Below the pieces are notes generated by a model. The model was not told the DNA's origin, ran no database searches, and was given only the letters and a program-made list of their open reading frames with translations. From an uncultured Opitutia bacterium (lineage in GTDB: Bacteria; Verrucomicrobiota; Verrucomicrobiia; Opitutales; Opitutaceae): 34,870 bases of DNA. Made by a program: the position numbers and the translations under genes. The stretch lies in assembly GCA_903896015.1 (NCBI GenBank), contig CAITWF010000060.1, positions 1 through 34,870 of the forward strand. Direction: 5' to 3'. This document shows positions 2,374 to 33,554 of the stretch, piece after piece. Every line of letters starts with the position of its first letter. The first letter of the stretch is position 1.

Positions 2374-2397
2374 CGTCAGCAAGACTGACGCCCTGCG
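2374..2397 (+). repeat. REP-like palindrome, copy 2 (upstream flank of the RAYT gene)
   Basis: This has the same core as copy 1, with CGTCAG/CTGACG around CAAGA followed by CCCTGCG. It ends 2 nt before the transposase start codon, so in RNA the hairpin would sit where a ribosome binding site is expected. It may therefore affect translation of the transposase as well as act as its DNA target. Confidence 0.9.
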
Positions 2398-2399
2398 CT

Positions 2400-6531: not shown

Positions 6532-7146
6532 ATGAGCCGCATAGTTAAAGCGAATCCACTGCGCGCCAAGCGAACCGTGGCGCTCGCGCGCTGGTTGCTC
6601 GGCAAGCACCTCGTGCGTCGCCACGCAGATGGTTCGATGGACGCGCGACGCATCACGGAGGTTGAAGCCTGCGACGGCGAGCGCGATCGCGCGTGCCACG
6701 CGCGCATGGGGCGCACCGCTCGCAATGCGGTGATGTATGAGCCTGGCGGCATTTGGTATGTCTACCTCTGCTATGGACGGCACGAGATGCTCAACCTCGT
6801 GGTCGGTCCGCGCGACTGGCCGGCGGCGATTTTGATTCGTGGCGTCGAGGGTGCGAGCGGGCCGGGCCGCGTTACAAAAACGCTCGCGATCGATCGGACG
6901 CTCAATGCTGGTTTAGCGACTGCACGATCGACGGGACTTTGGATCGAGGATAGAGGGGAGCGCGTTTCGCGCAGGCACATCCGCGCGACGCCGCGCGTCG
7001 GCATCGACTATGCCGGACCGATCTGGTCGAAAAGGCCGTGGCGTTTTATTTATTCGCCGACGCTGGAGCCGACGCCTTCCCCGCGTAAACCTGATCGGCC
7101 CCGGGGAGATCGTGAGTCGTCCAGCCGCCGCCGAGCGCTTCGGTGA
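6532..7146 (+). CDS. 3-methyladenine DNA glycosylase (alkyladenine glycosylase family)
   Basis: The enzyme removes alkylated purines from DNA to begin base excision repair. The 204 residues carry the AAG motifs: ITEVEACDG with catalytic Glu45, a DRACHARMGRTARNAVMYEPGG stretch with His57, then the intercalation region IWYVYLCYGRHEMLN (Tyr78 and Tyr81 equivalent to human Tyr159 and Tyr162) and AAILIRGVEG. The residue matching human Tyr127, which stacks on the flipped base, is Cys47 here. Conserved similarity ends around FIYSPTL (about 172-178); the last 27 residues are Arg/Pro-rich and run antisense through the end of the outer-membrane factor gene, a convergent overlap of 101 bp, suggesting that an earlier stop was lost. 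The start at 6532 fits the family start. Confidence 0.88.
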   Translation: MSRIVKANPLRAKRTVALARWLLGKHLVRRHADGSMDARRITEVEACDGERDRACHARMGRTARNAVMYEPGGIWYVYLCYGRHEMLNLVVGPRDWPAAILIRGVEGASGPGRVTKTLAIDRTLNAGLATARSTGLWIEDRGERVSRRHIRATPRVGIDYAGPIWSKRPWRFIYSPTLEPTPSPRKPDRPRGDRESSSRRRALR

Positions 7147-8539: not shown

Positions 8540-8553
8540 GAGAGAAAGGTGGA

Positions 8554-11500: not shown

Positions 11501-11856
11501 AGATCAGCGCGAGCGGCGTTGATTGCAGCCTGCACGTCGCGCGCGGCACCGTCGATGTCGCGGCTAAGGCCGAATTGAAGCGTGATGTTCGTGCTGCCGA
11601 CCGAACTGCGCGAGGTCATCTCGCTCACGTCGGCGATCGTGCCGAGGTGGCGTTCGAGCGGCGTCGCCACACTGCTGGCCATCGTCTCAGGGCTCGCACC
11701 GGCCATTGAAGCCGAGACAGTGATCGTCGGAAAATCCACTTGCGGCAAGGGAGCGACCGGCAACCGGAAATAGGCCGTGAGCCCCGCTAGCGCGACGCCG
11801 ACGGCCAGAAGCGTGGTGGCCACTGGCCGTTTGACGAATGGCTCCGAAAGATTCAT
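8554..11856 (-). CDS. RND efflux pump, HAE1/AcrB family (MdtC-like)
   Basis: This 1100-residue inner-membrane proton-driven drug exporter works as one of two paired pump subunits, as in MdtBC. It starts with [20 protein letters not shown], has the RND duplication, the TM4 acidic pair in [14 protein letters not shown], the TM10 lysine in [14 protein letters not shown], and [17 protein letters not shown] near the end. It is about 60-70 residues longer than usual because of low-complexity glycine-rich segments: a short one after the TM7-8 porter region ([16 protein letters not shown]) and a longer Gly/Ser/Thr/Ala-rich stretch before [13 protein letters not shown]. Its ATG overlaps the stop of the upstream pump gene by 4 nt. 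Confidence 0.95.
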
Positions 11857-14800: not shown

Positions 14801-14969
14801 CCGGGCTCGCGCCCGGATAGAAAGTCTGCACCTGAATTGTCGGGTAGGCGACCTCGGGGAGCGCAGAGAGCGGTAGGAAGCGAAAAGCGACGAGTCCAAC
14901 GATCAAGATTGCTGCCATTAGCAGCGTGGTCGCGACGGGCCGCAGGATGAAGAGGCGGGAGGGGCTCAT
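11853..14969 (-). CDS. RND efflux pump, HAE1/AcrB family (MdtB-like)
   Basis: This 1038-residue inner-membrane RND transporter is the first of two tandem pumps. It begins [18 protein letters not shown], carries TM4 [21 protein letters not shown] with the proton-relay aspartates, TM10 [14 protein letters not shown], and porter-domain motifs such as [15 protein letters not shown] and [11 protein letters not shown]. The length is standard, without the glycine-rich inserts of its partner. The open frame continues upstream, but the ATG at 14969 is where family similarity begins and it lies 52 bp after the fusion-protein gene ends. Two different adjacent RND subunits downstream of a fusion protein is the mdtABC arrangement, in which the pumps form a heterotrimer. 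Confidence 0.95.
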
Positions 14970-15021
14970 GGCCGGGCGATGCGGAGCTGCTGCGATGCGG
15001 CTTGGCGGAGTTCGGGGAAAC

Positions 15022-16395
15022 TCACGGGGTGCCGTCGGCGTTCGGGCGCGATTTTTTGCCTTCACCGTCGACACCACCGCCGCGCGACCATTTTTTCTCG
15101 CCTCCCTCCGCGCCGGGTGGACCACCGCGGCCGCCGCGTCCACCCCGCCCACCGCGGCCAGCGGCAGGCGCAGAAGAGTCGGTGAGAATAACCTTCATGC
15201 CTTCGCGGAGCTTGTCCGCTCCGTCGATGACTACGCGGTCGCCGACGGCGAGTCCCGAGGTGATCGCCACACGCTCACCCTCGACCAATCCTAATTTAAT
15301 CGGTGTGACGGCCACGGAGCTGTCGGGCTGAACCACGTAAACGTAAGTGCCAGTTTGTCCGCGCTCGATCGAGGAGGTCGGGAGGGCGATGGTGTCCGGT
15401 ACGGTGTCGACGAGGAGGCGGATGTTAACGAATTGGTTCGGGAAAAGGGCCTCATCCTCGTTGGCGAATTCTGCGCGCAGACGGAACGTTCCGGTGGTGG
15501 TGTCAATTTGGTTGTCAATACTGGCGAGCACCCCGGTGGCAAGCGTGCGGCTCTGCGTGCGATCAAGCGCGGCGACGGGGAGTTTTGCACCTGCGTGCAG
15601 CCGGGCGGAGACCGGCCCAATATTGTCCTCGGGCAGCGTAAAGACCACTGAGATCGGTTTCACCTGAGTGAGGACGACGATGCCTCCCGAATCACCGGGC
15701 GTGACGTAGTTCCCAACATCGACCACCCGCAGACCGACACGGCCATCAACCGGCGCGATGATATGGCAGTAGGTGAGGTTAAGCTTCACGTTATCTACGA
15801 GCGCCTGGTCGGTCTGCACTAGGCCGAGATATTGGTTAACCTGCGACTGCGAGGTGTCGACTTGCTGCGCCGATATCGAATCCTCCTTCGCGAGCGTCTT
15901 ATAGCGCGCGAGATCGAGCTGGGCCGTTCGCAGCTGCGCTTGCGCCTGCTGCAGTTGACCCTCGGCTTGAGCTAGGGCGACTTCGTAGGGCCGCGGATCT
16001 ATCGTCGCGAGGAGATCGCCTTTCTTCACCGTCTGGCCCTCTTGGAACCCAAGTTGGACAAGTTGTCCGTTGATTTGTGTTCGGATGGTGACGGTGCGCA
16101 GTGGCGCCACAGTGCCAAGGGCATTAAGGTAAAGACTGATGTCGCCTTTCGCAGCCAAGACTGTTGCTACGGGGAGTGGCGCGTTACCACCGCCGAAGCC
16201 ACGCCGCCCGCCGCCACCACCGCCACCCGGCGCGCCACCAGCCGGGGAGTTGCGATGATTATACCACCACGTGCCGCCGAGCAGGGCAAGGCCGATGGCG
16301 ACTATCGTGATCATGGTCCACTGGCCTTTTGGCCGGTCGGACGGCGTCAAGTTGGCTTGGGCAGGCGCTGGTTTGCGGTCAGGAAGGTCGCTCAT
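15022..16395 (-). CDS. RND efflux membrane fusion protein (MdtA/AcrA-like)
   Basis: The 457-residue protein links the inner-membrane pumps to the outer-membrane channel through the periplasm. It has one N-terminal membrane anchor (about 27-44, [17 protein letters not shown]), a glycine-rich linker, a biotinyl-lipoyl-like half motif ([33 protein letters not shown] split across the fold), a helical hairpin rich in Gln/Ala (about 140-200), the second lipoyl half ([22 protein letters not shown]), a beta-barrel and a membrane-proximal domain. Unusually, the C-terminus is a 45-residue Gly/Arg-rich tail (RGGRGGRGG type). It is the first gene of the operon; the 147 bp upstream presumably hold the promoter. 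Confidence 0.94.
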
Positions 16396-19263: not shown

Positions 19264-19535
19264 TACGGAAAAACAAATGCGCTGAGCACGAGCAGGAGCA
19301 AACACAGCGCGGCGGCCCACCAATACCACGCGAGGCCATTGACGCGGCGTGTCGGCGCTTTTTCGGCGGGATTCTCGTCCGCAAAGGCCTCGTCAGGCAG
19401 ATCGAGATCGTCGTAGAGGCTCGTTTCCCGCCAGCCGGTGCGCTCGTCCGCGCCGCAATCAGGGCACGCGCGCGCAGTGCGCGAAATCGCCGCGCCACAG
19501 TTTGCGCATTCCTCGGGCGGCAGCAGGTCAGGCAT
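19263..19535 (-). CDS. Small zinc-ribbon membrane protein
   Basis: This 90-residue protein has an N-terminal zinc ribbon with two CxxC knuckles (CANCGAAIS and CPDCGADE, about 10-28), an acidic linker (YDDLDLPDEAFADENP), and one C-terminal transmembrane helix (about 70-88, WYWWAAALCLLLLVLSAFVF). The ribbon is expected to face the cytoplasm. Proteins of this plan are common next to unrelated genes and have no established function. Its start overlaps the end of the AI-2E family gene by 8 nt and its stop overlaps the exonuclease start by one base, so it is clearly translated in the operon. Confidence 0.82.
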   Translation of the reverse strand: MPDLLPPEECANCGAAISRTARACPDCGADERTGWRETSLYDDLDLPDEAFADENPAEKAPTRRVNGLAWYWWAAALCLLLLVLSAFVFP

Positions 19536-20676
19536 GGGGTGCAGAAAAATATTTCCGCTTAGCGAGTCGCCACACTGTCACAAAAAACGCGGTGAGCGGG
19601 ATGGCGAAGAGCATTCCCAGCAAGCCGCCAAAGGCCGTGCCCCAGAAAAAAATAGCAACGATGATCACGACGGGATGCAGCCCCGTGCGATCACCCATAA
19701 TTTTGGGCGTGAGCACCCATCCTTCGATGCACTGCACGAGAACCTTTACGAGCAGCACGAGGCCGAGAAGCGCCGCTCCGCCCCCCGGCTGGAAAAACGC
19801 CAGCGGCAGCGCGATTGCGAGCCCAAGGATGGTGCCGAGGTAAGGCACGATGTTGAGCACCCCGAATGCGAGCCCGAGCGCGAAGCCAAACCGCAGCCCG
19901 ACCATCGTGAAGCCAAGCCCGAGCAGCACGCCCATGATCAAACCTATTAGGATTTGGCCGCGGAAGAAAGACTCGACGATCGCGACGAATTCGCGGACGA
20001 GAAACACGACGTCGTCGCGCAGCCCGGGTGAGAGAAACGTCAGATGCCGCGGCAGCTTTTCAGTCGGCTCGCCGCGCGCGAGCAGGAAGAAAAATAAATA
20101 TACCGGCACGATCGCGAGATGGGTGGCGAACGCGAAGACGCCGAGCAGCCCGCCGCCCGCGGCCCGTAACGAAGGCATTGCGTGAGCGATCAATGCCCTG
20201 CTTTCGGTCGCGATCGTTTCGATCAGCTGGCGGGCCACCGGATCGTTGAACTCTTTTTGGATGAGTTCGACCCAGCGCGGGAAATGCGCCGCGAGTGAGG
20301 CCTGCGCGCTAGTCCAGAGCGTCGGCGCATAGCTGATGAAATCGAGCAACTGGCTTGCGAGCGGCGGCACCGCGAGCACGAGCGCGCCGGCGACAAACAG
20401 CACGAAACTACCATACAGCAGCACGACCGCCGCGAGGCGACGCAGTTTCAGTTGCCGTTCGAGCCATTCTACCAGCGGCCGCAGGATGAGTGCGAAGACG
20501 CCTGCCACCGCGAGCGGCCAGAGCACACCGGAGAAAAATCCCGCGAGCCAGGCAAGCGTCGTGATCGTACCCACGAGGAGCGCGAGAATGCCGATAAACG
20601 CGACCAAAGCGATCGCGGCGGCAACGACGCGGCGTTGCGCGGGACTCAGCAGCGACGGTGATGGCTCCGATGACAT
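19528..20676 (-). CDS. AI-2E family transporter (PerM/TqsA-like)
   Basis: This 382-residue inner-membrane protein has about eight hydrophobic segments in the family layout: two pairs at the N-terminus, a soluble helical stretch (about 125-185), then VPVYLFFFLLA, a cytoplasmic loop with FVAIVESFFRGQILIGLIMGVLLGLGF, and the conserved NIVPYLGTILG followed by EGWVLTPKIMGDRTGLHPVVIIVAIFFWG. Members have been linked to autoinducer-2 export or ion exchange; the substrate here is unknown. The ATG at 20676 is chosen because similarity starts after MSSEPSPSLLSPAQR; the frame upstream is compositionally odd and overlaps the RND gene. It is 43 bp downstream of that gene and starts the five-gene overlapping unit. 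Confidence 0.9.
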   Translation of the reverse strand: MSSEPSPSLLSPAQRRVVAAAIALVAFIGILALLVGTITTLAWLAGFFSGVLWPLAVAGVFALILRPLVEWLERQLKLRRLAAVVLLYGSFVLFVAGALVLAVPPLASQLLDFISYAPTLWTSAQASLAAHFPRWVELIQKEFNDPVARQLIETIATESRALIAHAMPSLRAAGGGLLGVFAFATHLAIVPVYLFFFLLARGEPTEKLPRHLTFLSPGLRDDVVFLVREFVAIVESFFRGQILIGLIMGVLLGLGFTMVGLRFGFALGLAFGVLNIVPYLGTILGLAIALPLAFFQPGGGAALLGLVLLVKVLVQCIEGWVLTPKIMGDRTGLHPVVIIVAIFFWGTAFGGLLGMLFAIPLTAFFVTVWRLAKRKYFSAPHA

Positions 20677-20719: not shown

Positions 20720-23068
20720 TCACGATTTCGCCGCCATCGGAAACGGCACCTGTGTCCGTCCCGTATGGTGCCGCCAGAACCAGCGCGCCATCGCCGGGAG
20801 CAGAATGATCGCACCCAGCATGTTCACCAAAAACATGAACGTGAGCAGCAGGCCCATGTCGGCTTGGAATTTCAGGCTCGAGAAAATCCACGTGCTCACG
20901 CCGATCGCGAGCGTGAGGCCGGTGAAGACGACGGCGGCCCCGGTGTCCTTGAGCGCGGCGGCCATCGCATCCTCGAAATACTCGCCGGCGTTCAACGCCG
21001 TATTGAGCCGGGCGAAGAGATAGATGCCATAGTCAACACCGATGCCCACTCCGAGCGCGACGACCGGCAACGTCGACGTCTTCAAGCCAATCCCAAGAAA
21101 CACCATCAACGCATAGGCGAGATAGTTCACAATCGCGAGCGGCACGACGATGCAGAGCGTCGCGCGCACCGATCGAAACGTAATCAGGCAGAGCGCGATC
21201 ACCGCGCCGAAGACCCAGTAGAGGATCGGGCGCTCAGCGGCGTGGACCACCTCATTGGTCGCAGCCATGACGCCGGCGTTTCCGCTCGCGAGCAGAAATT
21301 TTGCCTTCGGCGACGGATGTGCAGCGGCGAACGCCTTCACGGCGTCAGTCACGGCGGAGAGCGTTTCCGCTTTGTGATCGGCGAGAAAGATCATGATCGG
21401 CATCACGCTGCCGTCGCGGTTGAGCAAACCGGTCGAGGTTTCGATTGGCGAGACGGCCTGTGCGAGCGCCTGCTGGTTGCGCGGCAGGATGCGCCACTTG
21501 AGCGAGCCCTCGCTGTAGCCGGCGTTGACGATTTTGGCCATCGCCGGGAGCGAAATGACAGACTGTACGCCGGGCACGGTGCGGAGGGTGCCTTCAAATT
21601 GATCCATCAGCGAGACGACATCGTAGTCGACGCAGGCGTTGGGCGCGGCTTCGACGAGCACGGAGAGAATGTCCACACCGATGCTGAACTTTTCGGTGAT
21701 GACACGTGTGTCCTCGTTGTAGCGCGCGTGTGGACGCAACTCCGGCACGCCGGCCTGAGTGTCGCCGATGCGAATCCGACCGGCCGTCCACGCGCCCCAC
21801 GCGCCGAGCGCGAGGCCCAGAACCACGATGACCAGCGAAGGGCCCGGCTTCATCTCGTGGGCGAGCCGAGACCAGAACGCATCCATTGCCTCGCGCCGCT
21901 CCGTGACCCACGCACGGTAGCTGGCGGGCAAGCGCAGGTAGGAGAGCAACAGCGGCAGGAGGAAAAAATTCGTGACGACGATGACGCTGACGCCGAGGCT
22001 CGCGATAATTGCGAGCTCGCGGATCACCTCGATCTTGATGACAAGCATCGTGATGAAGCCGACCGTGTCGGTCATCAGTGCGACGAGGCCCGGTGCGATC
22101 AGCTGCATGAACGCGCCCTTGGCGGCAGTCGGGCCGTCGACGCCCTTGAACATCTCGTTGCGAAAGGTGCTGATTTTTTGGACGCCGTGACTCACGCCGA
22201 TCGCAAAGACGAGGAACGGCACGAGGATCGAAAACGGATCGATGCCGTAGCCAAGGGCGGTGAGTCCGCCGAGTTGCCAGACGACGGCGACGAGTGAGCA
22301 GAGCACGGGAGCAAGCGCGAGTTTCCAGCGGCCGGCATAGTGCCAGACGAGCAGCGCGGTGACGACGATCGAGACCACGAAGAGGACGAGGACGTTGCGC
22401 GCGCCGTCACTGATGTCGCCGATGACCTTGGCGAAACCGATGATATGGATGGAGATTTTCCCGCCGCTCGCGGACTCGATGCGTTGCCGGATTTTTTCGA
22501 GTCCGGTGGCGACGCGGGTGTAATCGATCTTCGCGCCGGTGCGCGGATCGATTTCGAAAAGCTGGGCACTGACGATTGCGCCGGTGAAGTCGTTAGCGAC
22601 GAGTTGGCCGAGTTTGCCTGACTTCAGGATATTTTCCCGGACCTTGGTGAAGTTGGCAGCCGTGGGCGAGAAGTCGGCCGGGATAACGTTGCCGCCGGAG
22701 AAGCCATCCTCGACTACCTCAATGTAACGGACGTTGGGCGTGAAGAGCGATTGCACCTGCGTGCGATCGACGGACGGCAGGAACGTGACCTCGTCGGTGG
22801 CGGTCTTCAGTTCGCGGAAAAATTCCGGCGTGAAAATGTCGCCTTCGGCGACGGTCAGCGCAACAAGGACGCGGTTCGCCCCGCCGAACTCGCTTTCGTA
22901 CTTCGTGAACGTGCGGATGTAATCGTGATCGAGCGGAAGGGTTTTGTTGAAGCTCGCGTCGACCCGCAGTCGCAACGCGAACACGGCCGTGACCGCCGTG
23001 AGCACCGCGAATGCGCACACGAGCGGCGTGCGCCAGCGAAACATCCAAGTCGTGAATTTTTCGAGCAT
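20720..23068 (-). CDS. RND superfamily exporter (MMPL-type, sterol-sensing-domain-like)
   Basis: The 782-residue inner-membrane protein has the two-fold RND plan in the short MMPL form: a TM helix at about 14-34, a periplasmic domain with FGGANRVLVALTV, a bundle of five helices (about 215-385), another single helix, a second periplasmic domain, and a final bundle of helices ending about 765. The motif GVGIGVDYGIYLFARL in the second bundle corresponds to the TM acidic site of the family. Such proteins export hydrophobic compounds or lipids in proteobacteria. It follows the YCF48-like gene by 4 bp, and the DUF1329 and DUF1302 genes lie upstream: a set that recurs in proteobacteria. Cargo is unknown. 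Confidence 0.9.
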   Translation of the reverse strand: MLEKFTTWMFRWRTPLVCAFAVLTAVTAVFALRLRVDASFNKTLPLDHDYIRTFTKYESEFGGANRVLVALTVAEGDIFTPEFFRELKTATDEVTFLPSVDRTQVQSLFTPNVRYIEVVEDGFSGGNVIPADFSPTAANFTKVRENILKSGKLGQLVANDFTGAIVSAQLFEIDPRTGAKIDYTRVATGLEKIRQRIESASGGKISIHIIGFAKVIGDISDGARNVLVLFVVSIVVTALLVWHYAGRWKLALAPVLCSLVAVVWQLGGLTALGYGIDPFSILVPFLVFAIGVSHGVQKISTFRNEMFKGVDGPTAAKGAFMQLIAPGLVALMTDTVGFITMLVIKIEVIRELAIIASLGVSVIVVTNFFLLPLLLSYLRLPASYRAWVTERREAMDAFWSRLAHEMKPGPSLVIVVLGLALGAWGAWTAGRIRIGDTQAGVPELRPHARYNEDTRVITEKFSIGVDILSVLVEAAPNACVDYDVVSLMDQFEGTLRTVPGVQSVISLPAMAKIVNAGYSEGSLKWRILPRNQQALAQAVSPIETSTGLLNRDGSVMPIMIFLADHKAETLSAVTDAVKAFAAAHPSPKAKFLLASGNAGVMAATNEVVHAAERPILYWVFGAVIALCLITFRSVRATLCIVVPLAIVNYLAYALMVFLGIGLKTSTLPVVALGVGIGVDYGIYLFARLNTALNAGEYFEDAMAAALKDTGAAVVFTGLTLAIGVSTWIFSSLKFQADMGLLLTFMFLVNMLGAIILLPAMARWFWRHHTGRTQVPFPMAAKS

Positions 23069-23072
23069 GGCG

Positions 23073-24008
23073 TCAGGGCTTCGGGAGCAGCGTTGCCCCC
23101 GCCTCGCCGACCGCGAGCACCGAGCCGTCGGGCAGTTCGATGATTTTGGCGACGGCGGTCGTTAACGGCGTGTCCCACGCGATGAACTTATGTCCGTAAT
23201 CGCGACTCACGAGGAAGCCCCGCGACTGGCCCGCGAGCAGCAGCGTGTTGCTCTGTAGTTGGAGCGCGGTCGCGAGCAGGACCGGATGCGGTGTGACAAT
23301 CGGCTCCCACGTGGCGCCGTCGTCCGTGGAGCGAAAAAGCCGGCCGCGCAGTCCGTGGGCGATCAGCGTGCGGCGATCGAGCGGGAGAATGCCGTAAAAC
23401 GAGCCGTCGTAGGGGGAAGCGATACGGGACCACTTTGCGCCGTTGTCGATGGAGCGGAGCAGGGTGCCATGCTCGCCCGCGAGATAGAGTGTGCCGCCCG
23501 GACCGCGAGTCAGTCGGTTGAGGTGGACGTCCTCCTCGATAATTTTCCGGCGCGCCCAGGTTTTGCCGCCGTCGTCGGTGGCCAGGAAAAGTCCGTAGGC
23601 GCCGACGGCGATGACGTGGCGCGCGTCGAACGCGCGCACATCGAGAAACGAATCGGAGAGATTTTCGCCCTGCCACTGTTCTTTCCATGACCGACCGCCA
23701 TCGCTGGACGAGAGGATGAGTGCATCGTGGCCGACAATCCAACCGTGCTGTGCGTCGGGCGCGAAGTTCAGCGCGGTGAGGGTAGCGGTTGTCGGCGCGG
23801 CGATGCTTTGCCACGAGCGAGCGGCGTCACTCGAGCGCAGAATCACGCCGCGCTCGCCGACAGCGATGAGATCGTGGGCGACGGCGGCAACGTCGAGCAG
23901 GAGCATCCGCGGGGCAATGTCCGTGGCAAACATCGCCGTCGCGATGACAGCTCCCAGCAGAGTTAGTTTGAGCACAGCGACGAATCCGCGCGAGGCCAGT
24001 TGGCACAT
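23073..24008 (-). CDS. YCF48/BNR-repeat exported beta-propeller protein
   Basis: The 311-residue protein has an N-terminal hydrophobic segment (about 8-28, probable signal or anchor) and six or so repeats of the photosystem II assembly factor YCF48 type, recognisable by the S/DDGGxxW pattern: SSDAARSW, SSDGGRSW, TDDGGKTW, SIDNGAKW, STDDGATW. It is not evidence for photosynthesis; members of this group commonly sit next to MMPL-type RND exporters and are presumed to be periplasmic partners. It ends 4 bp before the RND gene. The start at 24008 gives the full signal region; a terminator lies 56 bp upstream, so transcription probably starts in that short gap or reads through. Confidence 0.87.
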   Translation of the reverse strand: MCQLASRGFVAVLKLTLLGAVIATAMFATDIAPRMLLLDVAAVAHDLIAVGERGVILRSSDAARSWQSIAAPTTATLTALNFAPDAQHGWIVGHDALILSSSDGGRSWKEQWQGENLSDSFLDVRAFDARHVIAVGAYGLFLATDDGGKTWARRKIIEEDVHLNRLTRGPGGTLYLAGEHGTLLRSIDNGAKWSRIASPYDGSFYGILPLDRRTLIAHGLRGRLFRSTDDGATWEPIVTPHPVLLATALQLQSNTLLLAGQSRGFLVSRDYGHKFIAWDTPLTTAVAKIIELPDGSVLAVGEAGATLLPKP

Positions 24009-24059
24009 GAGAGATGCGAGTGTTCGGCTGAATTCTTCGCGATGTTTAGAATGACAAAC

Positions 24060-24087
24060 AAAAAGGGCCGGTTCCGAGAACCGGCCC
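24060..24087 (-). terminator. Rho-independent terminator after the DUF1329 gene
   Basis: A perfect 10-bp stem (GGGCCGGTTC at 24065-24074 with GAACCGGCCC at 24078-24087) and a 3-nt loop are followed on the minus strand by five T (24064-24060). It lies 9 bp after the DUF1329 stop and separates the DUF1302/DUF1329 pair from the YCF48/RND pair. It closely resembles the rpmA terminator. Confidence 0.9.
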
Positions 24088-24096
24088 GGAGGTGTT

Positions 24097-25449
24097 TTAC
24101 CGTGTGCCTTCGCGTCGGAGCGAGTCGGGTGTGAAATCAGCGGGCGTGCGCTTCAACGTGAAGTCATACATCGCTTGATCGTTATCGAGGCCGATGCAGA
24201 GGTAGCGGCCGTTGTCGAGGTGCGTATGGACCTCGATCGTGCTCCAGAAACTCTGCGCGTCGTAATAGTTGATGCAGTGCGCCTCCGAGATGACGCTGAG
24301 CTGGCCGCGCTTGTCGTATTGATCGGCGATGAGGATCTGCCAGCTGTCCTCGTCGATATAGAAGGTGCGGCGTGAGTAGACGTGATTGGTGCCGGGCTTA
24401 AGCGTGGCGTCGACAACCCAGACACGATGTAGTTCGTAGCGCGCGAGGTCCTGATTGATGTGCAGCGGCTTCAGGATGTCGGAGACTTTCGTCTTGTCGC
24501 TGTGCAGGGTGTAGGAGTTGTAAGGGACGAGTAGTTCACGTTTGCCCACGAGCTTCCAATCATAGCGATCGGGCGCTCCGTTGAACATGTCGAATTGATC
24601 GCTGGTGCGCTGGCCGTCGGCGGCGGTGCCGGGGTTGTCGTAGGCGACGTTGGGCGCGCGGGTGACGCGGCGGCGGCCGGCATTGTAGACCCACGCGCGG
24701 CGCGGCTCTTTGACCTGATCCATCGTTTCCTGCGCGAGCAGGATGGTGCCGGCGAGGCGCGCCGGTGCGGTCACGGCCTGCTTGAAGTAGATCAGCGTGT
24801 TGCTGTCTTCGAGCTCTTTGGCGGTGATGTCGGGGCGCGTGTAGTTGAACAGAAACTCGTCTTCAAACTGCACGAGCTGATAACCGCCGCCGCGCTCGAC
24901 GGCGGCCTGGCCGATGTGGCGGTTCGCCGCGACGCCCCGGTAGCGCGTAAGAAAATTCCACAGCACCTCCAGGCCGTTGTCCGGGATCGGAAAGGGCGCG
25001 CCGACAATGGCGCCGGAAATGCCGTTGCCATCGGAGACGAGTTTGGCGGTGGCGACGTTGGCCTTCGTGGCGTCGTAGATCCGCTGCGGATTGGAAGCGC
25101 TGCGGCGCGAGGGATAAACGATCAGCTTGTAATCGGGATAGGCCTTGAGGAGCGCAAGGGTGCCGGCAGCGAGCTTGGACTCGTATTGCGCGGCGTTGCC
25201 CGCAGTGATCGTGTAGAGCGGTTGATCGCCCGCGAACGGGTCGGGGTGGTGCATGCCCACCTTGTAGCCGGCGGGTGGCGTGGTGATTCCGCCGGTCCAT
25301 GCAGGGATTGAGCCGTCGGCATTGCCGGCCTGCTCGGCACCGAGCGGCGTGAGATCTTTGCCGAGGCGGGAGGCGTCGGCGGACCAAGCCGCGGGCGAGA
25401 GCAGGACAGCCGAGATGAGGAGGATGGAAGCGAGGAGAGTTTTGTTCAT
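24097..25449 (-). CDS. DUF1329 exported protein (outer-membrane lipoprotein-sorting fold)
   Basis: This 450-residue protein has a clear signal peptide (MNKTLLASILLISAVLLSP, cleavage near AWSADA). The mature part has the DUF1329 pattern: RLGKDLTPLGAEQAGNADGSIPAWTGG, PPAGYKVGMHHPDPFAGDQPLYTIT, the middle WNFLTRYRGVA, and the end HRVWVVDATLKPGTNHVYSRRTFYIDEDSWQI with DQYDKRGQL. The fold is related to LolA/LolB-type lipid-carrying half-barrels, so a role in moving hydrophobic molecules across the periplasm is plausible but unproven. It follows the DUF1302 gene by 27 bp and is followed by a strong terminator. The ATG at 25449 gives the signal peptide directly. Confidence 0.92.
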   Translation of the reverse strand: MNKTLLASILLISAVLLSPAAWSADASRLGKDLTPLGAEQAGNADGSIPAWTGGITTPPAGYKVGMHHPDPFAGDQPLYTITAGNAAQYESKLAAGTLALLKAYPDYKLIVYPSRRSASNPQRIYDATKANVATAKLVSDGNGISGAIVGAPFPIPDNGLEVLWNFLTRYRGVAANRHIGQAAVERGGGYQLVQFEDEFLFNYTRPDITAKELEDSNTLIYFKQAVTAPARLAGTILLAQETMDQVKEPRRAWVYNAGRRRVTRAPNVAYDNPGTAADGQRTSDQFDMFNGAPDRYDWKLVGKRELLVPYNSYTLHSDKTKVSDILKPLHINQDLARYELHRVWVVDATLKPGTNHVYSRRTFYIDEDSWQILIADQYDKRGQLSVISEAHCINYYDAQSFWSTIEVHTHLDNGRYLCIGLDNDQAMYDFTLKRTPADFTPDSLRREGTR

Positions 25450-25476
25450 GACGGGGTGGTTTTCGCGCAACGCGTC

Positions 25477-27462
25477 TTAGAAGGAATATTTCACGGTCGT
25501 CGCAACGTAGTCGCGATCGTGGAGCAGGTTGAACTGGCCGGCGCCGAAGAAGCTGACGTAGCGCAGCTCGAACGACCAGGCGTTGCGGAAGCTGAACTCC
25601 ACGGCGGCGTTCACACTCTTGCGGCCCTCGATGTAGTTGCCAAGGGGCAGCGGGGTGTTGCCCGCGACATCATGCGTGAAGGCGAGCGACGGCGACATGT
25701 TCACGTTCGGGAGCAGGTTGTTGTAATCCAAGCGTCCGAGGACTTGGTAACCCCACGAGAATTTGTCCGCAAAGCCATTGGCCGGGCTCGGGGGAATCGC
25801 GCCAAAGCCGGTATTAATCATCGCGGAGGGATTGCCGCTGGCGAACGTGCCCGTGCCGTCGTAGCGCAGGACGCTCTTATCCGGAAGATTGGCCCAGAGG
25901 CCGCCGACTTCGCCGAGGAGGGTGAACTGCTGGGAGCCAAGCACGGGACCGAAGACTTTCGTCAGCGTCGTCTGCGCGGTCCACACGTCATGGCGGCGAT
26001 AGCCGGATATCTCGCTGTTGTATTGGCCGAGGTAGCTGCCGAGCTGGTTGTTCGGCGGTCCGAAGGTGCCGCTCAGCGACGAGAGCGTCGCGAAGAGCAG
26101 CTCAACGTCGTCGATTTGAAGCGGGACGTCGTGCTTGTAGCCGACTTCACCCTGCCACGAGATGCCGGTTTTGCCGATCGCGGTGTTGAAGCTGGCGCCG
26201 AACATATCGATGCCTTCGGGATACTCGATGAAGTAGCGGCCCGTGGCGGCCGCGGTGAGGAGACCAACCTTACCCGCACCAGCAGCTGCAGCTTGGACGG
26301 TCGGATAAAACGGCTGCAAGCTCGCAGGCAGCGCGGCCGCGGGGACGCCGGTGAGCGCTGCGCCGATAAGCGTGGTGAGCGAGGCGGAGACACTCGCGGC
26401 CGGAATCCCCGCGGCGATCATGGCGGGTGCGAGCGGCGTCACGAGGCTCGTCGCCGTCGCGATCACGAGCGGCGTGCTGATCGGGCCGGTGGGTGTGCGT
26501 GCGCTGATGAGCGGCGAGCGACTGTTGTAGCGCGCGTAATAGAGGCCAAATTCGGTGTCGTGCAGCGCGGGCGCGAGGATGTGCGTGGCGAGGCCGTATT
26601 GGTTGAAGTTGGAGCCCTCGCGATCCTTGTCGCGCGGGATGGCACCGAGCGTGCCCGTGTCGGGCAGAGTGCCAAAACCAAGGAAGACATTGCTGCCGCC
26701 GCGGGTCGCAAAATCATTCGTCGAGAAATAGGTGCCGGCGGGCTCGAGTTCGTTGCGGCGGAATTCGAGGAGCCAAAACGGTTCCAGCGTCACGTTCTTC
26801 GTGATGCCAATCGAGGCCTTGATCATGTTGACCGGCAGCAGGGCCTCTTTGAGTTCGGAGCCGGGCACCCGGAGCTTCGAGAGGTCGGCGGAATTGACGA
26901 CATTGATGCCGTTCGGGATGAACGTGCTTTCGCCGAGGCTGAGAACCTGGCGGCCGATGCGAAAGTCAAAGGGCATATCCGCGCCGACCGTAAATTTTCC
27001 ACGGACATACATATCAAGCATCTCGCCGCCGCGGACGACGCGGTCCTTCGCCTGTTGCGAGAGCGTGGTGCGGAGGGTGTCGCCGCTCTTGCCGTCGGTG
27101 AACCAGTAGCCGCGGACGAACGCGCCGAAGTCGCCGTACTTCAACTCAAGGTCATGCGAGCCCTTGAAGAGCTCCGAAACCCAGCCCTTGCCGTAGTTGA
27201 GGTTGCCGTCGTCGGTATTAACGGAGTTGAGCTGACCGGCGACGCCGTTGAAGGAATTCGACGTGCCGTAATTGCTGGGGCTCGGATTTTGCAGGCGATA
27301 GAGGCCGCCAAAGGATAGCGTGCTGTCGAAGCTGCCCTGGATTTCGCCGGCCTTGAACTGAAAGGCGCGGACGGGCGCGGCACCGAGGAGCACGCCGAGT
27401 GCCGTGAGAAGGGTCACGCGCGCGAAGCGAGCGGCGACAAGTGAAGACGGATGATCATTCAT
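25477..27462 (-). CDS. DUF1302 outer-membrane beta-barrel protein
   Basis: The 661-residue protein has a signal peptide (MNDHPSSLVAARFARVTLLTALGVLLGAAPVRA region split at A-F), then FQFKAGEIQGSFDSTLSFGGLYRL typical of DUF1302, many alternating strands, and an ending VATTVKYSF with the C-terminal phenylalanine of outer-membrane barrels. An Ala/Thr/Val-rich stretch (about 365-450, between PTGPISTPL and GRYFIEYPEGIDMFG) looks like the extended loop seen in many family members. DUF1302 proteins nearly always travel with DUF1329, as here. A channel or receptor for a hydrophobic compound is inferred. The frame is open far upstream, but the ATG at 27462 starts the signal peptide. Confidence 0.92.
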   Translation of the reverse strand: MNDHPSSLVAARFARVTLLTALGVLLGAAPVRAFQFKAGEIQGSFDSTLSFGGLYRLQNPSPSNYGTSNSFNGVAGQLNSVNTDDGNLNYGKGWVSELFKGSHDLELKYGDFGAFVRGYWFTDGKSGDTLRTTLSQQAKDRVVRGGEMLDMYVRGKFTVGADMPFDFRIGRQVLSLGESTFIPNGINVVNSADLSKLRVPGSELKEALLPVNMIKASIGITKNVTLEPFWLLEFRRNELEPAGTYFSTNDFATRGGSNVFLGFGTLPDTGTLGAIPRDKDREGSNFNQYGLATHILAPALHDTEFGLYYARYNSRSPLISARTPTGPISTPLVIATATSLVTPLAPAMIAAGIPAASVSASLTTLIGAALTGVPAAALPASLQPFYPTVQAAAAGAGKVGLLTAAATGRYFIEYPEGIDMFGASFNTAIGKTGISWQGEVGYKHDVPLQIDDVELLFATLSSLSGTFGPPNNQLGSYLGQYNSEISGYRRHDVWTAQTTLTKVFGPVLGSQQFTLLGEVGGLWANLPDKSVLRYDGTGTFASGNPSAMINTGFGAIPPSPANGFADKFSWGYQVLGRLDYNNLLPNVNMSPSLAFTHDVAGNTPLPLGNYIEGRKSVNAAVEFSFRNAWSFELRYVSFFGAGQFNLLHDRDYVATTVKYSF

Positions 27463-27671: not shown

Positions 27672-30608
27672 ATGCAGGCCGCAACCCACATCCACATCAA
27701 AGGCGCCCGCGAACACAACTTGAAGAACCTCGAGTTGCGGCTCCCGCGTGGAAAACTAATAGTGGTCACGGGGCCCAGCGGCTCTGGCAAGTCGTCGCTG
27801 GCCTTCGACACGATCTATGCGGAGGGCTACCGGAAATACATGGAGTCGCTAAGCGCGCAGGCGCGCCAGGTGCTCGACCAACTCAAGCGGCCCGACGTCG
27901 ATTTCATCCACGGACTCTCGCCGGTCCTTGCGATTGAGCAGCGCACCGGCGCCGGCGGCCCACGCTCGACGATCGCGACGGCCACCGAAATCGCCGACTA
28001 CGCGCAGCTGCTCTGGGCGCTCGTCGGTCAGCAATTCTGCCCGAAGGACGGAGGTCGCGTGATGCAGCGATCACTTGACGATAACGTCCAGCGCGTCCTT
28101 ACCGAGTGCGTCGGTGAGCGTGTGATGCTGCTCGCACCGTTCATGCGTGCCAAGCCGAGCGTGCTGCGCGAAGAATTGCCACGGCTGCGCCAGCGCGGCT
28201 TCCAGCGCGTGCGGCTCGACGGTGAAATCAAGAATCTCGACGAACCCAAACTCATCCCGACCGGTGCGAAAGAGGTCGTGGTCGAAGTCGTGGTGGATCG
28301 CCTCGTCGCGACCGCCGACCAACGCGCGCGGCTCGCCGACTCCCTCGAACTCGCCTTTCGCGAAGGCAAGGATCGCGCCGTCGTGCTCGCGCAAAAAACG
28401 GCCGAGTCGCCGTGGCGCGAGCTGCCCCTCTCCCAGTCGCTCGCGTGCGAAGTGTGCGGCGATGTTTTCGAGAAACTCTCAGCCAAGCATTTTTCCTACT
28501 CGAATCGCGAGGGCGCCTGCTCCACGTGCGACGGATTGGGACGAAAGCTTCGCTTTGTACCCGAGCTGATTGTCGCCGATCCGGACAAAAGCGTGCGTGA
28601 GGGCGCGCTGAAGCCCTGGCGCATCGGCGGAAAAAATCTCATCATAAAGCACAACGCACTGCTCAAGCAGCTCGCCGAGCAGTTGCCGTTCGATGCCGAC
28701 GTGCCCTGGAAAAAACTTCCCGAAGAAACGCGCCGCGCGATTTTGTTTGGGGCGGGGGAGCGGGAGTTTGCGTTCAAGCTCCGCCGGATGCGCGAGGCGA
28801 AGGCGCAGACGTTTCCCGGCGTGATCGCCGATCTGGAGGAGAGCTGGCGGCACACCGATAGCGAAGGCTTTCGGGCGCGGCTCACAACGTTCATGGTCGC
28901 GGGCGAGTGTCCCGAGTGTCACGGCTCGCGGCTCAATGCCCGCAGCGGTGCCGTGCGTATCTCATGTCGGGCGTCTGTCGTGCAGACCCCGTCGTCCGAA
29001 GATCCTCAAGCCGACGTCAGCAAGGCTGACGCCCTGCGTGGTGACGGGCTCACTTTTCCTGAGTTCATGCAGCTAGACATCGGCGAGGCGCACACGGTGG
29101 CACGTGAACTGGTCGCCGCGCACAGCGCCAACGATGCCGCCAACGACGTGGTCACCGGCATCGAGCAACGGCTGCACTTTCTCCTCGAAACTGGGCTCGC
29201 CTACCTGACGCTCGATCGCGACTACGTGACGCTTTCGGGCGGCGAGGCGCAGCGCGTGCGGCTCGCGACGCAGCTCGGCATGGGCCTCATCGGCGTCATC
29301 TACGTCCTCGACGAACCGAGCATCGGTCTGCACCCACACGACAACCAGAAGCTCCTCGATACCATCGTCGCGCTCCGCGATCGCGGCAACACCGTCATCG
29401 TCGTCGAGCACGACGAGGACACGCTGCGTCTGGCCGACGAACTCATTGAGCTTGGCCCCGAGGCCGGCGTTGAAGGCGGCAATCTATTGTTTCAAGGCAC
29501 GCCGGCCGACTGCATGAAACTTTCGCCGCGTGTTTCTCGTACCGGTGGCTATCTCTCGCGCACACTCTCGGTCATCCGCGACGCGAAATTGAAGGAGCCT
29601 GACGGAGCGTGGCTCACCGTGCGCGAGGCCCGCGCCAACAATCTTCGCGGAATCGATGTGCGGTTTCCGGTCGGACTGCTCACGGTCGTAACGGGCGTCA
29701 GCGGCTCCGGCAAAAGCACGCTCGTCAACGATGTTCTCGCCGCCGCCGCTGCGCGCAAACTCAACGGCGCAAAAACGATTCCCGGCAAGCACCGCCACAT
29801 CGAGAATCTCGATTTCTTCGAAAAGCTCGTGCAGGTCGATCAGGAGCCGATCGGCCGCAGTCCGAGGTCCAATCCCGCGACCTACGTCGACCTGCTTACC
29901 CTTCTGCGGGATCTCTACGCGTCAGTGCCCCTCGCGAAGGTGCGCGGCTACAAGGCGAGCCGATTCTCGTTCAACGTTCGCGGCGGCCGTTGCGAACGCT
30001 GCCAAGGCGACGGCGCCATCAAGCTCGATATGCAATTCATGGCCGACGCCTACGCGCCGTGTCCCAGCTGTGGCGGCCGCCGCTTCAACCGCGAGACGCT
30101 GGAAATTCTCTTCCACGGCAAATCGATCGCCGACGTCCTCGATCTGACCGTGCGCGAAGCGATCACACTCTTCCGCAACATTCCGCGCGTGATCGACAAA
30201 CTCGCGACGCTCGATGCGGTCGGGCTCGGCTACCTCACGCTCGGCCAGTCGGCGACTACACTTTCTGGCGGCGAAGCGCAGCGCTTGAAACTCTCGCTCG
30301 AACTGAGCAAGCGCCAGCAAGGCTCGACGCTCTACATCCTCGACGAGCCAACGACGGGCCTGCACTGGACTGACATCCAGAAGCTGATGGACCTGCTTTT
30401 CAAACTCCGCGATCAGGGCAACACCGTCATCATCATCGAGCACAATCTCGACGTGATCAATCTGGCCGACTGGCTGATCGATCTCGGTCCGGGCGGCGGC
30501 CGCGAAGGCGGCGAACTGATCTTCTCCGGCCCGCGCGCAGAAATCGAAGCGAGCGAGCGGTCCCTCACCGGCGCGGCTCTGCGGCGTTGGCGCGAACAGA
30601 TCCTTTAG
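27672..30608 (+). CDS. uvrA: Excinuclease ABC subunit A (UvrA)
   Basis: UvrA is the damage-recognising ATPase of nucleotide excision repair; it loads UvrB onto damaged DNA. The 978 residues contain both ABC modules: Walker [10 protein letters not shown] (34-42) and GVSGSGKST (675-683), signatures LSGGEAQR (521-528 and 864-871), Walker B YVLDEPS (544-550) and YILDEPT, and zinc sites C259/C262/C283/C286 and C774/C777/C797/C800. The UvrB-binding insertion (about 131-245) is present, so it is not a shortened UvrA2. An extra loop at about 431-459 contains a REP-like palindrome read as DVSKADALR (448-456). The start ATG at 27672 is preferred over a TTG five codons earlier. The stop overlaps the convergent GH43 stop by 3 bp. 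Verrucomicrobia often have more than one uvrA, so this may be a paralogue. Confidence 0.94.
29015..29038 (+). repeat. REP-like palindrome, copy 4, inside uvrA
   Basis: CGTCAG and CTGACG surround CAAGG and are followed by CCCTGCG: one base different from the copy upstream of the RAYT gene. It lies in frame within uvrA and does not introduce a stop. It is 26 kb from the RAYT gene and in the same orientation as the other three copies. Confidence 0.88.
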
Positions 30609-31615
30609 TTTTTTTTCACGCGCAGAGTATCCCCGAGGTCTTCGAGTTCAAAAATCCGCTGGCGCGTGCTTGGCGAATCATTCGGAGAGTGCAGGGTCAG
30701 CATAAGCTGGCCGTCGAAACGGCGAAAGATCATCGGGTGGCCGCCGTCGGCGGCGTAGAGCGGTTCGGCTTGCTGCGTCCACGGGCCGGCTAGTTTTCCG
30801 CTTTGCGAGAGCGCGATGCCGGTCGTGTAGCCGCCGGTTCCGAAGCCCGACCACACCATGAGGAGCTTCCCGGTTTTGCTGCGGTAGAGATACGGGCCGT
30901 CGGTCACGTGGCAGCCATAGGTTTGGTTTTTCACGCTCCACGGCGCGTCGCTGCCGTCGAAGAGTTTCACGGGTTCGCCGTCGGCCGCGGAAAGATCATC
31001 TTTGAGTTTCACCAGCTCAATTGCGCCGTTCTTGATCTGCACCCACTCGTGCGAGAAGACCATGTAGGGGACGTCGTCCTCGACCCAGAGCGTGCCGTCA
31101 AGTGTCATCATGTCAGTCGGCAAGGTGGAGCGATTTTCGAATGGGTGAAACGGTCCCGTGATGGCGTCGCTCCAAAGCACCTGTGAGCCGCGCTTCACCC
31201 GAGCGCGCCAGTTGCGCCACTGCTCGGTCAGCAGGTGACTCGAGTCGAACGTGAGGAAGAGATAATACTTTCCTTTGTATCGGTGAATCTCCGGCGCCCA
31301 GATGCCGCGATCGCCCCACCAGTCCTCCGGCACCTCGAAGATCACACGCGGTCCATTCCAAGTATGGAGATCCTTGCTGGAGTATTGGACGACGGTGGCG
31401 CGGCCGTTGGGCCCGCGGCGCCCGGCGCTCACGAGATAGTAGGTTTTCGTCGCCTCGTCGGGTAGAATGCAGGAGTCGCGCAGCCGCACGTCGGTGAGCT
31501 TCACGCTCTGCAACACGGGCGGTGTCACCGGTTCGGTTGCAGGCTGTGCCGACGCAAGGAGCGCTGTCAGAAGCGCAAGGAGCGGGAGTGGCAAAGGGGA
31601 AAAGCGGAGGCGCAT
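30605..31615 (-). CDS. Secreted glycoside hydrolase family 43-like protein
   Basis: The 336-residue protein has a signal peptide ([23 protein letters not shown]) and a five-bladed propeller pattern of GH43 type, a group that cleaves arabinose- or xylose-containing side chains. Visible elements are [21 protein letters not shown] with the likely catalytic-base aspartate, [40 protein letters not shown] with a candidate acid glutamate, [21 protein letters not shown], and [22 protein letters not shown]. The exact substrate cannot be read. It diverges from a second secreted protein across a 124-bp region containing a 17-bp inverted repeat, suggesting joint control. The 3' end is convergent with uvrA. 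Confidence 0.86.
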
Positions 31616-31666
31616 CGGAGCGAGCAGGCGGGTTAAATCAGTTGCGAAACCGAGTGGAAATCGAAT

Positions 31667-31683
31667 CGGTCAGACTCTGACCG
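31667..31683. promoter_or_regulatory. 17-bp inverted repeat in the divergent promoter region, likely operator
   Basis: CGGTCAG (31667-31673) and CTGACCG (31677-31683) are perfect inverted halves around ACT, in the 124 bp between the divergent GH43-like and unknown secreted protein genes (51 bp from one start, 56 bp from the other). Symmetry and central position are typical of a dimeric repressor or activator site that serves both genes. No regulator gene is adjacent. Confidence 0.6.
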
Positions 31684-31739
31684 TCAATCGGGTTGCGACT
31701 CGTCTTTTGCAGCGCAGAGCGAAACATGGCGAGCACCCC

Positions 31740-33554
31740 ATGAAGTTACGCCATCTCTTCGCAACGGCTACGCTGGCGACGATCGTGTCTGCCTTTGCCC
31801 AGTCCACCAAGGCACCGATCGAAATCGCGACGCCGATGCCCGCGCCCGAGTGGGCCAAACTCGAGCGGCAGATTCTCGCCGAGAGCGTGCCGGCATGCCT
31901 CGAGTTCGAGCAAAAATATTACGACGAACGCGGCTATCTACAGTGCTTCGTGCGCTGGGGCGCAAATGATGGCGCGGATGATGCGTTTGAAAATTTTGCC
32001 GACTGGCCGCAACTCCACGCGCTCGGTGCGAGTGACGAGATCCTTCGGATTTTCCTGAAAACTTGGAACGGCATGATTCGCCAATACTCCGAGGCGAAGA
32101 CGATCGATGTGCCGGCGGGCCGCGACGGAATTTATTTCAAGGAGTTCAACGCGCAGGCCGACTGGATGCACCAGGGCGAGGGCTTGCGGACGTTCAACCA
32201 GTTGGGCCTCACGGCCCCCGACTTGCCGATTTATCAGGAGCGCGTGCGGCGTTTCGCCGGCCTCTACATGGCGGAGGACCCCGACGCGCCGAACTACGAT
32301 CCGAAGCTGAAACTAATTCGTTCGATGCAAAACGGGTCAAAAGGGCCAATGCTGCGCAAGGCCACCGCTCTCGACTGGGTCGGCGATCCGTTTGAAGTCG
32401 CGAACTTCCTCGCCGGACACGGCGAGAGCACCTACGCACAGTTTCTCGAACACTATCGCGACTACTCCGAGGTCGCCGGGGATCACTTCCTCAATCTCGT
32501 CGCGACGACGCTGCCGACCGACGCTTTTTTGCTCACGCACGAGCCGAGCTACAAACAATGGCTCATCGATTATATGGACGCGTGGGTCGCACGTATGAAG
32601 GCGAACGGCGGCGTCATTCCGAGCTATGTTGACTTTCGCGACGGAAAAATTGGCGGGCCGGATAACAAGTGGTGGGGCAACGCCTACGGCTGGGGTTTCT
32701 CGCCGTCGAACCCCGTCACTGGCAAGCGCGAGAACCGCAACCGCATTCCGCGCGCCACGGTTGGTTTCGCGAATGCGTTGCTCGTCACGGGTGATCAGAA
32801 ATATCCCGAGGCGTGGCGCACGATGATGGACGCGGTCAACTCGCACGCGCGCACCGCAGCGGATGGGAAAAGGGAGTATCCGACGATGTGCGGCGCGGAC
32901 GGCTGGTATGGCTGGCAGAAGGAGCCGTGGAATGTGGGTGCCCTTGAACTGTGGTATTGGTCACAACGCACCGACGATCGGGAGCGGATTGGTAAGAGCG
33001 AGTGGCTGGAGTTTCTTGACGGCAGGAATCCCGCCTTTCCCGAAGCCGCGCTGCGCCGTGACCTGGCCGCAATCGAAAAAAAGGTGACGGGCTTCCGCGC
33101 CGACACCAAGCCCCCCGAGCGCCGGCTCGCGGACAACATGATGGATTTCAATCCCGCGTCGGTGGCCGCCCTCGAGGAACTGATGTGGGGCGCGTTACCG
33201 CCGGGCCGCGAGGGGAGCCTGCTCAGCGCGCGTCTGCGCTACTTCGATCCGGTGGCTAAGCGTGCGGGCGTGCCGCCGGACGTCGGCGCGCTGGTCTCAG
33301 AAATGAGTGACACACGCACCGTCGTCACGCTGGTGAATCTCAGCGCAACGGAATCACGCACCCTGATCGTGCAAGGCGGCGGCTATGGCGAACACCGGAT
33401 CGAAGCGATTGACGTGGAAGGAAGGGCCGCGCCCATCGCGGCGCGCCACTTCTTTACGGTGCGCTTGGCACCAGGCGCAGGCGCGAGATTGGTGCTGACG
33501 ATGCGCCGCTACGCGAACCCGCCGACGGTGCATTTCCCCTGGGATCGCTCGTGA
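31740..33554 (+). CDS. Secreted protein of unknown function, probable alpha-helical toroid
   Basis: The 604-residue protein begins with a signal peptide (MKLRHLFATATLATIVSAFA). I recognise the pattern from uncharacterised proteins of Planctomycetes and Verrucomicrobia but know no characterised member. Notable conserved-looking stretches are FVRWGANDGADDAFENFADWP, a KEFNAQADWMHQGEGL segment, AEDPDAPNYDP, TALDWVGDPFE, WWGNAYGWGFSP, PTMCGADGWYGWQ and LELWYWSQR. The abundance of Trp, Tyr, Asp and Gly in helix-ending loops resembles the (alpha/alpha) barrels of glycosidases and polysaccharide lyases, and the C-terminal 130 residues look like a beta-sandwich. The ATG at 31740 is chosen for the signal peptide; the longer frame would overlap the divergent gene. 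The neighbour is a GH43-like enzyme, so a carbohydrate role is inferred. Confidence 0.75.
   Translation: MKLRHLFATATLATIVSAFAQSTKAPIEIATPMPAPEWAKLERQILAESVPACLEFEQKYYDERGYLQCFVRWGANDGADDAFENFADWPQLHALGASDEILRIFLKTWNGMIRQYSEAKTIDVPAGRDGIYFKEFNAQADWMHQGEGLRTFNQLGLTAPDLPIYQERVRRFAGLYMAEDPDAPNYDPKLKLIRSMQNGSKGPMLRKATALDWVGDPFEVANFLAGHGESTYAQFLEHYRDYSEVAGDHFLNLVATTLPTDAFLLTHEPSYKQWLIDYMDAWVARMKANGGVIPSYVDFRDGKIGGPDNKWWGNAYGWGFSPSNPVTGKRENRNRIPRATVGFANALLVTGDQKYPEAWRTMMDAVNSHARTAADGKREYPTMCGADGWYGWQKEPWNVGALELWYWSQRTDDRERIGKSEWLEFLDGRNPAFPEAALRRDLAAIEKKVTGFRADTKPPERRLADNMMDFNPASVAALEELMWGALPPGREGSLLSARLRYFDPVAKRAGVPPDVGALVSEMSDTRTVVTLVNLSATESRTLIVQGGGYGEHRIEAIDVEGRAAPIAARHFFTVRLAPGAGARLVLTMRRYANPPTVHFPWDRS

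Follow-up and report, generated by a model that had tools for sequence, protein, structure and literature searches.

A four-gene DUF1302-DUF1329-YCF48-RND operon of Opitutaceae is a probable AmeABCD-type envelope transport cassette

The AmeABCD system of Castellaniella defragrans, described in 2018 as a monoterpene efflux system, combines a DUF1302 protein (AmeA), a DUF1329 protein (AmeB), a COG4447 (photosystem II factor-like) protein (AmeC) and an HAE3-type RND protein (AmeD) (PMC6394551). In the sections of that report used here, mutants deleted for ameABCD tolerate monoterpenes less well and show a greater influx of Nile Red, and the AmeD branch is a distinct HAE3 lineage whose every member is encoded in such a cassette (PMC6394551). 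A similar combination (COG4447, COG1033, PF07044 and DUF1302 together) was described in 2019 in the AphR/AphS/AphT-controlled operon of Betaproteobacteria, for which the passages concerned propose a role in coping with toxic aromatics (PMC6449761). The relevant parts of a 2024 study of P. putida report that PP_0765, PP_0766, PP_2018 and PP_2019 are required for growth on Tween 20, and that AlphaFold contacts are weak between DUF1329 and both DUF1302 and the RND protein but strong between the RND protein and the periplasmic PP_2018 (PMC10866462). None of the locus tags that we searched for was found in two further papers (PMC13291428 and PMC10949508). Finally, a 'Nanopod' cluster described in 2026 from ORM2a, a member of the Desulfobacterota, groups DUF1329, YCF48 and MMPL proteins with a porin-like protein in a proposed transmembrane complex. 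The excerpted text adds that this cluster is expressed in a benzene-degrading culture, and it cites a Delftia DUF1329 gene whose deletion impairs growth on phenanthrene (PMC13101534).

The window, by which we mean the whole stretch of 34,870 nucleotides from an uncultured Opitutia bacterium that was analysed here, carries genes for DUF1302, DUF1329, YCF48-type and MMPL-type RND proteins, all on the minus strand from 27462 to 20720 and transcribed in that order. The original prediction had named these four families in one direction, and exact coordinates and Pfam matches confirm it. The set and its two flanking genes are as follows:

25477..27462, minus strand: DUF1302 outer-membrane barrel, 661 aa from the ATG at 27462 (PF06980, E 5e-154)
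24097..25449, minus strand: DUF1329 periplasmic LolA-fold protein, 450 aa from the ATG at 25449 (PF07044, E 3e-151)
23073..24008, minus strand: YCF48-type beta-propeller, 311 aa (YCF48/PSII_BNR PF14870, E 3e-23)
20720..23068, minus strand: MMPL-type RND transporter, HAE3-like, 782 aa (PF03176, E 4e-30)
27672..30608, plus strand: uvrA, the divergent neighbour (TIGR00630 and PRK00349 UvrA models, above cut-offs)
19528..20676, minus strand: AI-2E family transporter, the next gene after the RND gene (PF01594, E 5e-48)

The boundaries of the set are exact, at the DUF1302 ATG (27462) and the end of the RND gene (20720). Four bases separate the end of the YCF48 gene from the start of the RND gene, and 210 bases lie between the starts of uvrA and DUF1302, which are read in opposite directions. 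The window genome (4.96 Mb) encodes one DUF1302 and one DUF1329 protein, and its best MMPL match is the RND protein of the window. No catabolic genes were seen beside the window's copy of the set. Elsewhere in the window, an unrelated second efflux operon (7046-16395, minus strand) encodes two AcrB-type RND proteins, an outer-membrane efflux protein and an adaptor in an MdtABC/MuxABC-like layout, the adaptor scoring 420 bits against the MdtA/MuxA model (cut-off 391). A 695-residue frame (31467-33554, plus strand) that adjoins a TonB C-terminal-domain gene has no Pfam or NCBIfam match at E 0.001 and may be a non-gene, and a Y1 transposase-like (IS200) gene (2169-2954, plus strand) is barely above its Pfam cut-off.

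Structures were predicted for the DUF1302 and DUF1329 proteins. Each model was built on the longest reading frame, whose start lies upstream of the probable ATG (for DUF1302, a frame of 725 aa compared with 661 aa from that ATG). The DUF1302 model is a beta-barrel (pLDDT 81.7) whose nearest solved folds are the Occ/OprD channels (Z 23.8) and AlgE (Z 21.1). Porins, MOMP and AlgE top the Foldseek matches, with TM scores of 0.28 to 0.37 by query length among the matches listed, and no solved relative of DUF1302 was found by sequence at E values up to 1. An alanine-rich, hydrophobic, partly helical insertion spans residues 387-472 of the 725-aa DUF1302 frame; it measures 81-90 residues in all six Opitutaceae rows and 10 to 103 in 24 other rows. 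The DUF1329 model (pLDDT 89.2) is best matched by LolA-type carriers, with a TM score of 0.84 by target length and E 7e-16 against LolA3 of Porphyromonas gingivalis and a TM score of 0.71 against 4z48, deposited as a DUF1329 family protein. The protein also matches the LolA_like family PF17131 (31.6 bits, cut-off 30), and its predicted model has the LolA fold. The YCF48-type protein has a signal-like stretch at its N-terminus, as read by eye, and its solved relatives in a sequence search are Ycf48 structures (E 5e-23). Its score against the PRK13684 equivalog model is 87.8 bits, below the cut-off of 326, which by sequence makes it a Ycf48 relative and not the photosystem II assembly factor Ycf48 itself.

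The RND protein belongs to the MMPL family (Pfam domain 105.5 bits, cut-off 20.5), and HAE3 and HpnN are among its nearest named groups. Its best NCBIfam match, TIGR00921 (HAE3), scores 173 bits, below the cut-off of 352, and the HpnN model scores 75.7 bits, below a cut-off of 751.85. By sequence, its solved relatives are MmpL5 and MmpL4, and HpnN weakly. An Asp-Tyr pair serves as proton relay in MMPL pumps and is usual in the family. In solved MmpL5 the pair is present in both halves, each of which was aligned to the second half of the window's RND protein; the latter, unlike MmpL5, has Ser293-His294 in its first half and Asp679-Tyr680 in its second. We take these motifs to lie in the counterparts of membrane helices 4 and 10. 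The asymmetry is constant across an alignment of 104 RND proteins that includes far plasmid forms: every row with a residue at the site has Ser-His in the first half (103 of 103) and Asp-Tyr in the second (101 of 101), and an invariant Gln lies three residues past the Ser-His pair. Judged from the alignment, this looks like a signature of the group, possibly, at a guess, one unreported so far. The Ser-His pair is a candidate marker of these pumps and a target for mutation.

The operon is concentrated in one family of its phylum and keeps one place there. Of the 387 genomes in a phylum sample, 25 have a strong DUF1329 match (E below 1e-150): 23 of the 37 in the window's family and 2 of the 350 elsewhere. 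All 25 neighbourhoods other than the window's agree with it in the order and strand of the four genes, with DUF1302 or the RND gene split into two frames at two loci (L033 and L037). A uvrA homologue stands beside DUF1302 in 23 of the 26 loci, window included, directly adjacent in 22 and separated in L055 just by a called frame of 91 aa (UvrA identity was established by model in the window and two relatives). Three loci have no uvrA: the second copy of the set in genome G010, that of G119, a genome from another family of the same taxonomic order, and that of G294, on a short contig. Every family genome with a neighbourhood read (23 of 23) thus has a copy at one place, next to uvrA. Distribution within the family is patchy, with strong DUF1329 matches in 61 of 120 genomes (67 have any match, six weak partials being counted as absent). 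The set is, in short, an old and stable chromosomal trait of Opitutaceae. The AI-2E transporter is often, not always, its neighbour, lying near the set in 11 of 26 loci within the fetched stretch and adjoining the RND gene in 8 of 26. A scan for an operator shared by uvrA and DUF1302 found that the commonest 8-mers reach just 10 of 23 intergenic stretches (up to 60 coding bases were included per end, and one stretch was empty).

The gene-neighbourhood survey called for by the original prediction extends this order to named genomes. A search with a DUF1329 alignment gave at least 596 confirmed stretches, and the best 80 were used. Strict order and strand are kept in 67 of these best 80 of at least 596, a count that leans to the window's close relatives because the best were kept. 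Together with the 25 of 25 phylum loci, this puts the co-occurrence of the four genes far beyond chance. The closest matches among the best 80 are Opitutae, Opitutaceae and Cephaloticoccus MAGs. By record title, the best 80 of at least 596 cover Opitutaceae and other Opitutales, Desulfuromonadales and other Desulfobacterota, many Gammaproteobacteria and some Alpha- and Betaproteobacteria, along with one member of the Nitrospirota, two Thermoanaerobaculia (Acidobacteriota) and one Flavobacterium, several of these being single MAGs. Among the 13 loci without strict arrangement, eight run into a contig end and L090 is ordered with an over-long YCF48 frame. The other four are real or apparent departures from the set: L133 and L138 have the DUF1302-DUF1329 pair only, L134 has no RND gene and L131 has DUF1329 alone. 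At L131 (9980-11359, a Flavobacterium MAG by title) the other three genes were not found within 10 kb, which could reflect mis-binning of the contig or divergence of the set. We further note that in marine Gammaproteobacteria (among loci L079-L128) the cassette occupies a second fixed chromosomal place, with an M1 peptidase gene (30 loci) on one side and NAD-glutamate dehydrogenase (32) and dihydroorotate dehydrogenase (31) genes on the other, these flanking genes having been identified by Pfam on one representative each.

Trees of the four proteins, built from 47 rows per protein (of 104 to 112; L056 and L086 were among those left out by choice), indicate a largely common history. The 12 Opitutaceae rows form one clade in the DUF1302, DUF1329 and RND trees (supports 95, 96 and 92), and in the YCF48 tree the clade also takes in the Opitutales rows L054 and L072 (support 97), which stand next to it in the DUF1329 and RND trees. 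Agreement is incomplete because L072 lies apart from the Opitutaceae in the DUF1302 tree, among rows of other phyla. The protein trees have 15 to 20 of 44 splits in common, and pairwise distance correlations range from 0.63 to 0.82 once four far plasmid rows are removed and from 0.42 to 0.89 if they are kept, compared with 0.27 at most for shuffled labels; these correlations speak for joint inheritance and not for contact, because species history alone would also produce them. Inconsistent trees had been put forward in advance as an argument against a single machine, and since the four trees largely agree, that idea stands unrefuted by them.

The original prediction had also offered transfer or an older, broader system as explanations for the presence of the set in this genome, and the two parts fare differently. 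Recent horizontal acquisition from Proteobacteria would fit the near restriction of strong DUF1329 matches to one family of the phylum, and DUF1329 relatives do occur on 42 plasmid records, the best at 56% identity, whose host genera we take to be Proteobacteria throughout. Six of these plasmid stretches were read: the whole set is contiguous in four (in one of them DUF1329 precedes DUF1302), one is split, and one has a DUF1302-DUF1329 pair. Against recent acquisition, the place beside uvrA is the same in all 23 family genomes read, the Opitutaceae rows form one clade in three trees, with just two Opitutales rows added in the fourth, and base composition is uniform across the window. We therefore reject recent transfer as extremely unlikely, and the older system is favoured by the uvrA-side place and the spread over several phyla. 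The set may have been acquired anciently, at the base of Opitutaceae.

Gene neighbourhoods give mixed hints about the substrate. FadD-like genes are found at 11, thiolase genes at 7 and either at 13 of the best 80 of at least 596 named loci (raw counts; FadD-like scores run from 72 to 378 bits, with one checked by Pfam). The second copy in G010 (L045) is followed on its strand by genes for an AMP-binding acyl-CoA synthetase (fadD-type) and a fadB-type protein. Upstream of this copy, and divergent from it, are a thiolase, an enoyl-CoA hydratase and a helix-turn-helix protein that contains an IrrE-like domain, and the contig also has acyl-CoA dehydrogenase matches at distances of up to about 15 kb. 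The DUF1302-DUF1329 pair on a P. aeruginosa plasmid adjoins a fatty acid-CoA ligase and a thiolase-kind acyltransferase, and some further copies are close to genes of the aromatic or ring-cleavage type. The housekeeping flanks (uvrA in one setting; M1 peptidase, NAD-glutamate dehydrogenase and dihydroorotate dehydrogenase in the other) are uninformative on this point.

Across 120 family genomes, strong matches to both 3HCDH_N (E below 1e-20) and acyl-CoA dehydrogenase (E below 1e-15) occur in 27 of 61 carriers of the set and in 6 of 59 others, in tables that treat genomes as independent and use cut-offs chosen after viewing the lists, with at most 25 3HCDH_N candidates scored per genome. The difference recurs in three genome-size classes (5/11 vs 1/22, 14/28 vs 2/19 and 8/22 vs 3/18) but weakens to p 0.07 when counted by genus. 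In the window genome, which is 97.9% complete, acyl-CoA dehydrogenase has no match and 3HCDH_N no strong one, with one weak partial at E 7e-5 (25 of 49 candidates scored). It is one of 27 carriers (of 61) without a strong match to either marker, and because of these 27, beta-oxidation is not a constant partner of the set. FadL as a complementary route was considered and dropped, since it shows no association across all 120 genomes (24 of 61 carriers, 24 of 59 others). Among the 33 genomes with both markers, 27 of which have DUF1329, FadL is found in 4 of the 6 without it and in 8 of the 27 with it, a hint of complementarity within this subset. Given the mixed neighbourhoods and the marker-less carriers, the best description of the substrate class is apolar and in many cases fatty-acid-like.

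We read the set as an AmeABCD-type envelope transport operon, an RND-driven and export-leaning route for an apolar molecule, with a probability of roughly 0.6; a proton-driven route for fatty-acid-like molecules is most likely. In such a route, the RND protein, using the proton gradient, would lift a fatty-acid-like or other apolar molecule from the inner membrane, with the YCF48 propeller docked onto it. We take PP_2018, the strong contact partner of the P. putida RND protein, to be a YCF48-type member. The LolA-fold DUF1329 protein would then shield the molecule while it is in the periplasm, and passage into or through the outer membrane would be the task of the DUF1302 barrel. The envelope-spanning route proposed in the original prediction is thus the most plausible reading and fits the work on AmeABCD and P. 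putida, with partial support.

Outward is probably the likelier direction, although the barrel fold fits import too because it is common to uptake channels (Occ/OprD). An uptake route would have the barrel admit fatty acids or esters, DUF1329 carry them inward and the RND protein act as a retrograde or conditioning motor feeding an acyl-CoA synthetase. This would account for the FadD and thiolase neighbours and the DUF1302 fold nearest to the Occ/OprD channels, and it agrees with the DUF1329 content of the both-marker genomes (27 of 33, with FadL in 4 of the remaining 6). Such a route fits poorly with a window genome that has no strong beta-oxidation markers and with FadL being no rarer in carriers than in others. 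To our knowledge, moreover, RND pumps of known direction export. The published phenotypes divide in the same way, as the P. putida homologues are reported to be needed on Tween 20 (PMC10866462), whereas AmeABCD is described as protecting against its compound (PMC6394551). On balance we regard uptake as rather unlikely.

Alternatively, the operon could supply the outer membrane with one of the cell's own membrane lipids, in the way that HpnN transports hopanoids. The fixed chromosomal place, its retention in genomes without strong beta-oxidation markers and the nearness of the RND protein to HAE3 and HpnN are in keeping with such lipid housekeeping. An essential lipid route would not be expected to be so patchily distributed within the family, and we hold this possibility to be improbable. 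Hopanoid transport in particular was rejected: no squalene-hopene cyclase match was found in the window genome (in the 120 family genomes, six have any match and two a match above cut-off), and the HpnN score falls far below its cut-off. As a further and rather unlikely possibility, the pumps may have a distinct motor that uses a single acid site, or a histidine, and is coupled differently, and the Opitutaceae cassette may serve general hydrophobe or lipid trafficking that is kept without beta-oxidation.

The export-leaning reading places a little-known envelope route, discussed in the papers cited here mainly for degraders of terpenes, aromatics and detergents, among the old family traits of a verrucomicrobial family. 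By record titles the set is found in five phyla: Verrucomicrobiota, Pseudomonadota and Desulfobacterota, with single or few MAGs of Nitrospirota and Acidobacteriota. As an old family trait spread over five phyla, the route therefore poses a general question about the cell envelope, beyond pollutant degradation. Desulfobacterota were long counted as Deltaproteobacteria. The suggestion that the set occurs outside Proteobacteria holds for Verrucomicrobiota and other phyla, and is not wholly new given the Desulfobacterota cluster of 2026, as far as its text describes it (PMC13101534). What is added here is the family-wide location beside uvrA, the largely agreeing trees, the patchy link to beta-oxidation and the Ser-His signature.

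Of the described systems, AmeABCD matches the window's operon in both family content and order. In gene set the Aph operon is also like it, and differs, in the passages describing it, by being co-controlled with aromatic degradation (PMC6449761). The P. putida genes likewise comprise DUF1302, DUF1329, a periplasmic protein and a transporter of the multidrug-efflux type, as far as that report describes them (PMC10866462), but by locus number they lie at two loci, whereas the window has one run of four. The 'Nanopod' cluster differs in having universal-stress-protein and hypothetical genes interposed, and its porin-like protein is not named DUF1302 in the text concerned (PMC13101534). HpnN resembles the window's RND protein as an HAE3-type RND protein, and differs in working without such partners according to the source sections used (PMC6394551). 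Compared by family and order, AmeABCD and the window's set have identical families in identical order; the former lies in a monoterpene-degradation island and the latter beside uvrA. The set was thus already known, and with the four families in this order on one strand, we judge the window's operon to be a new member of the AmeABCD-type cassettes.
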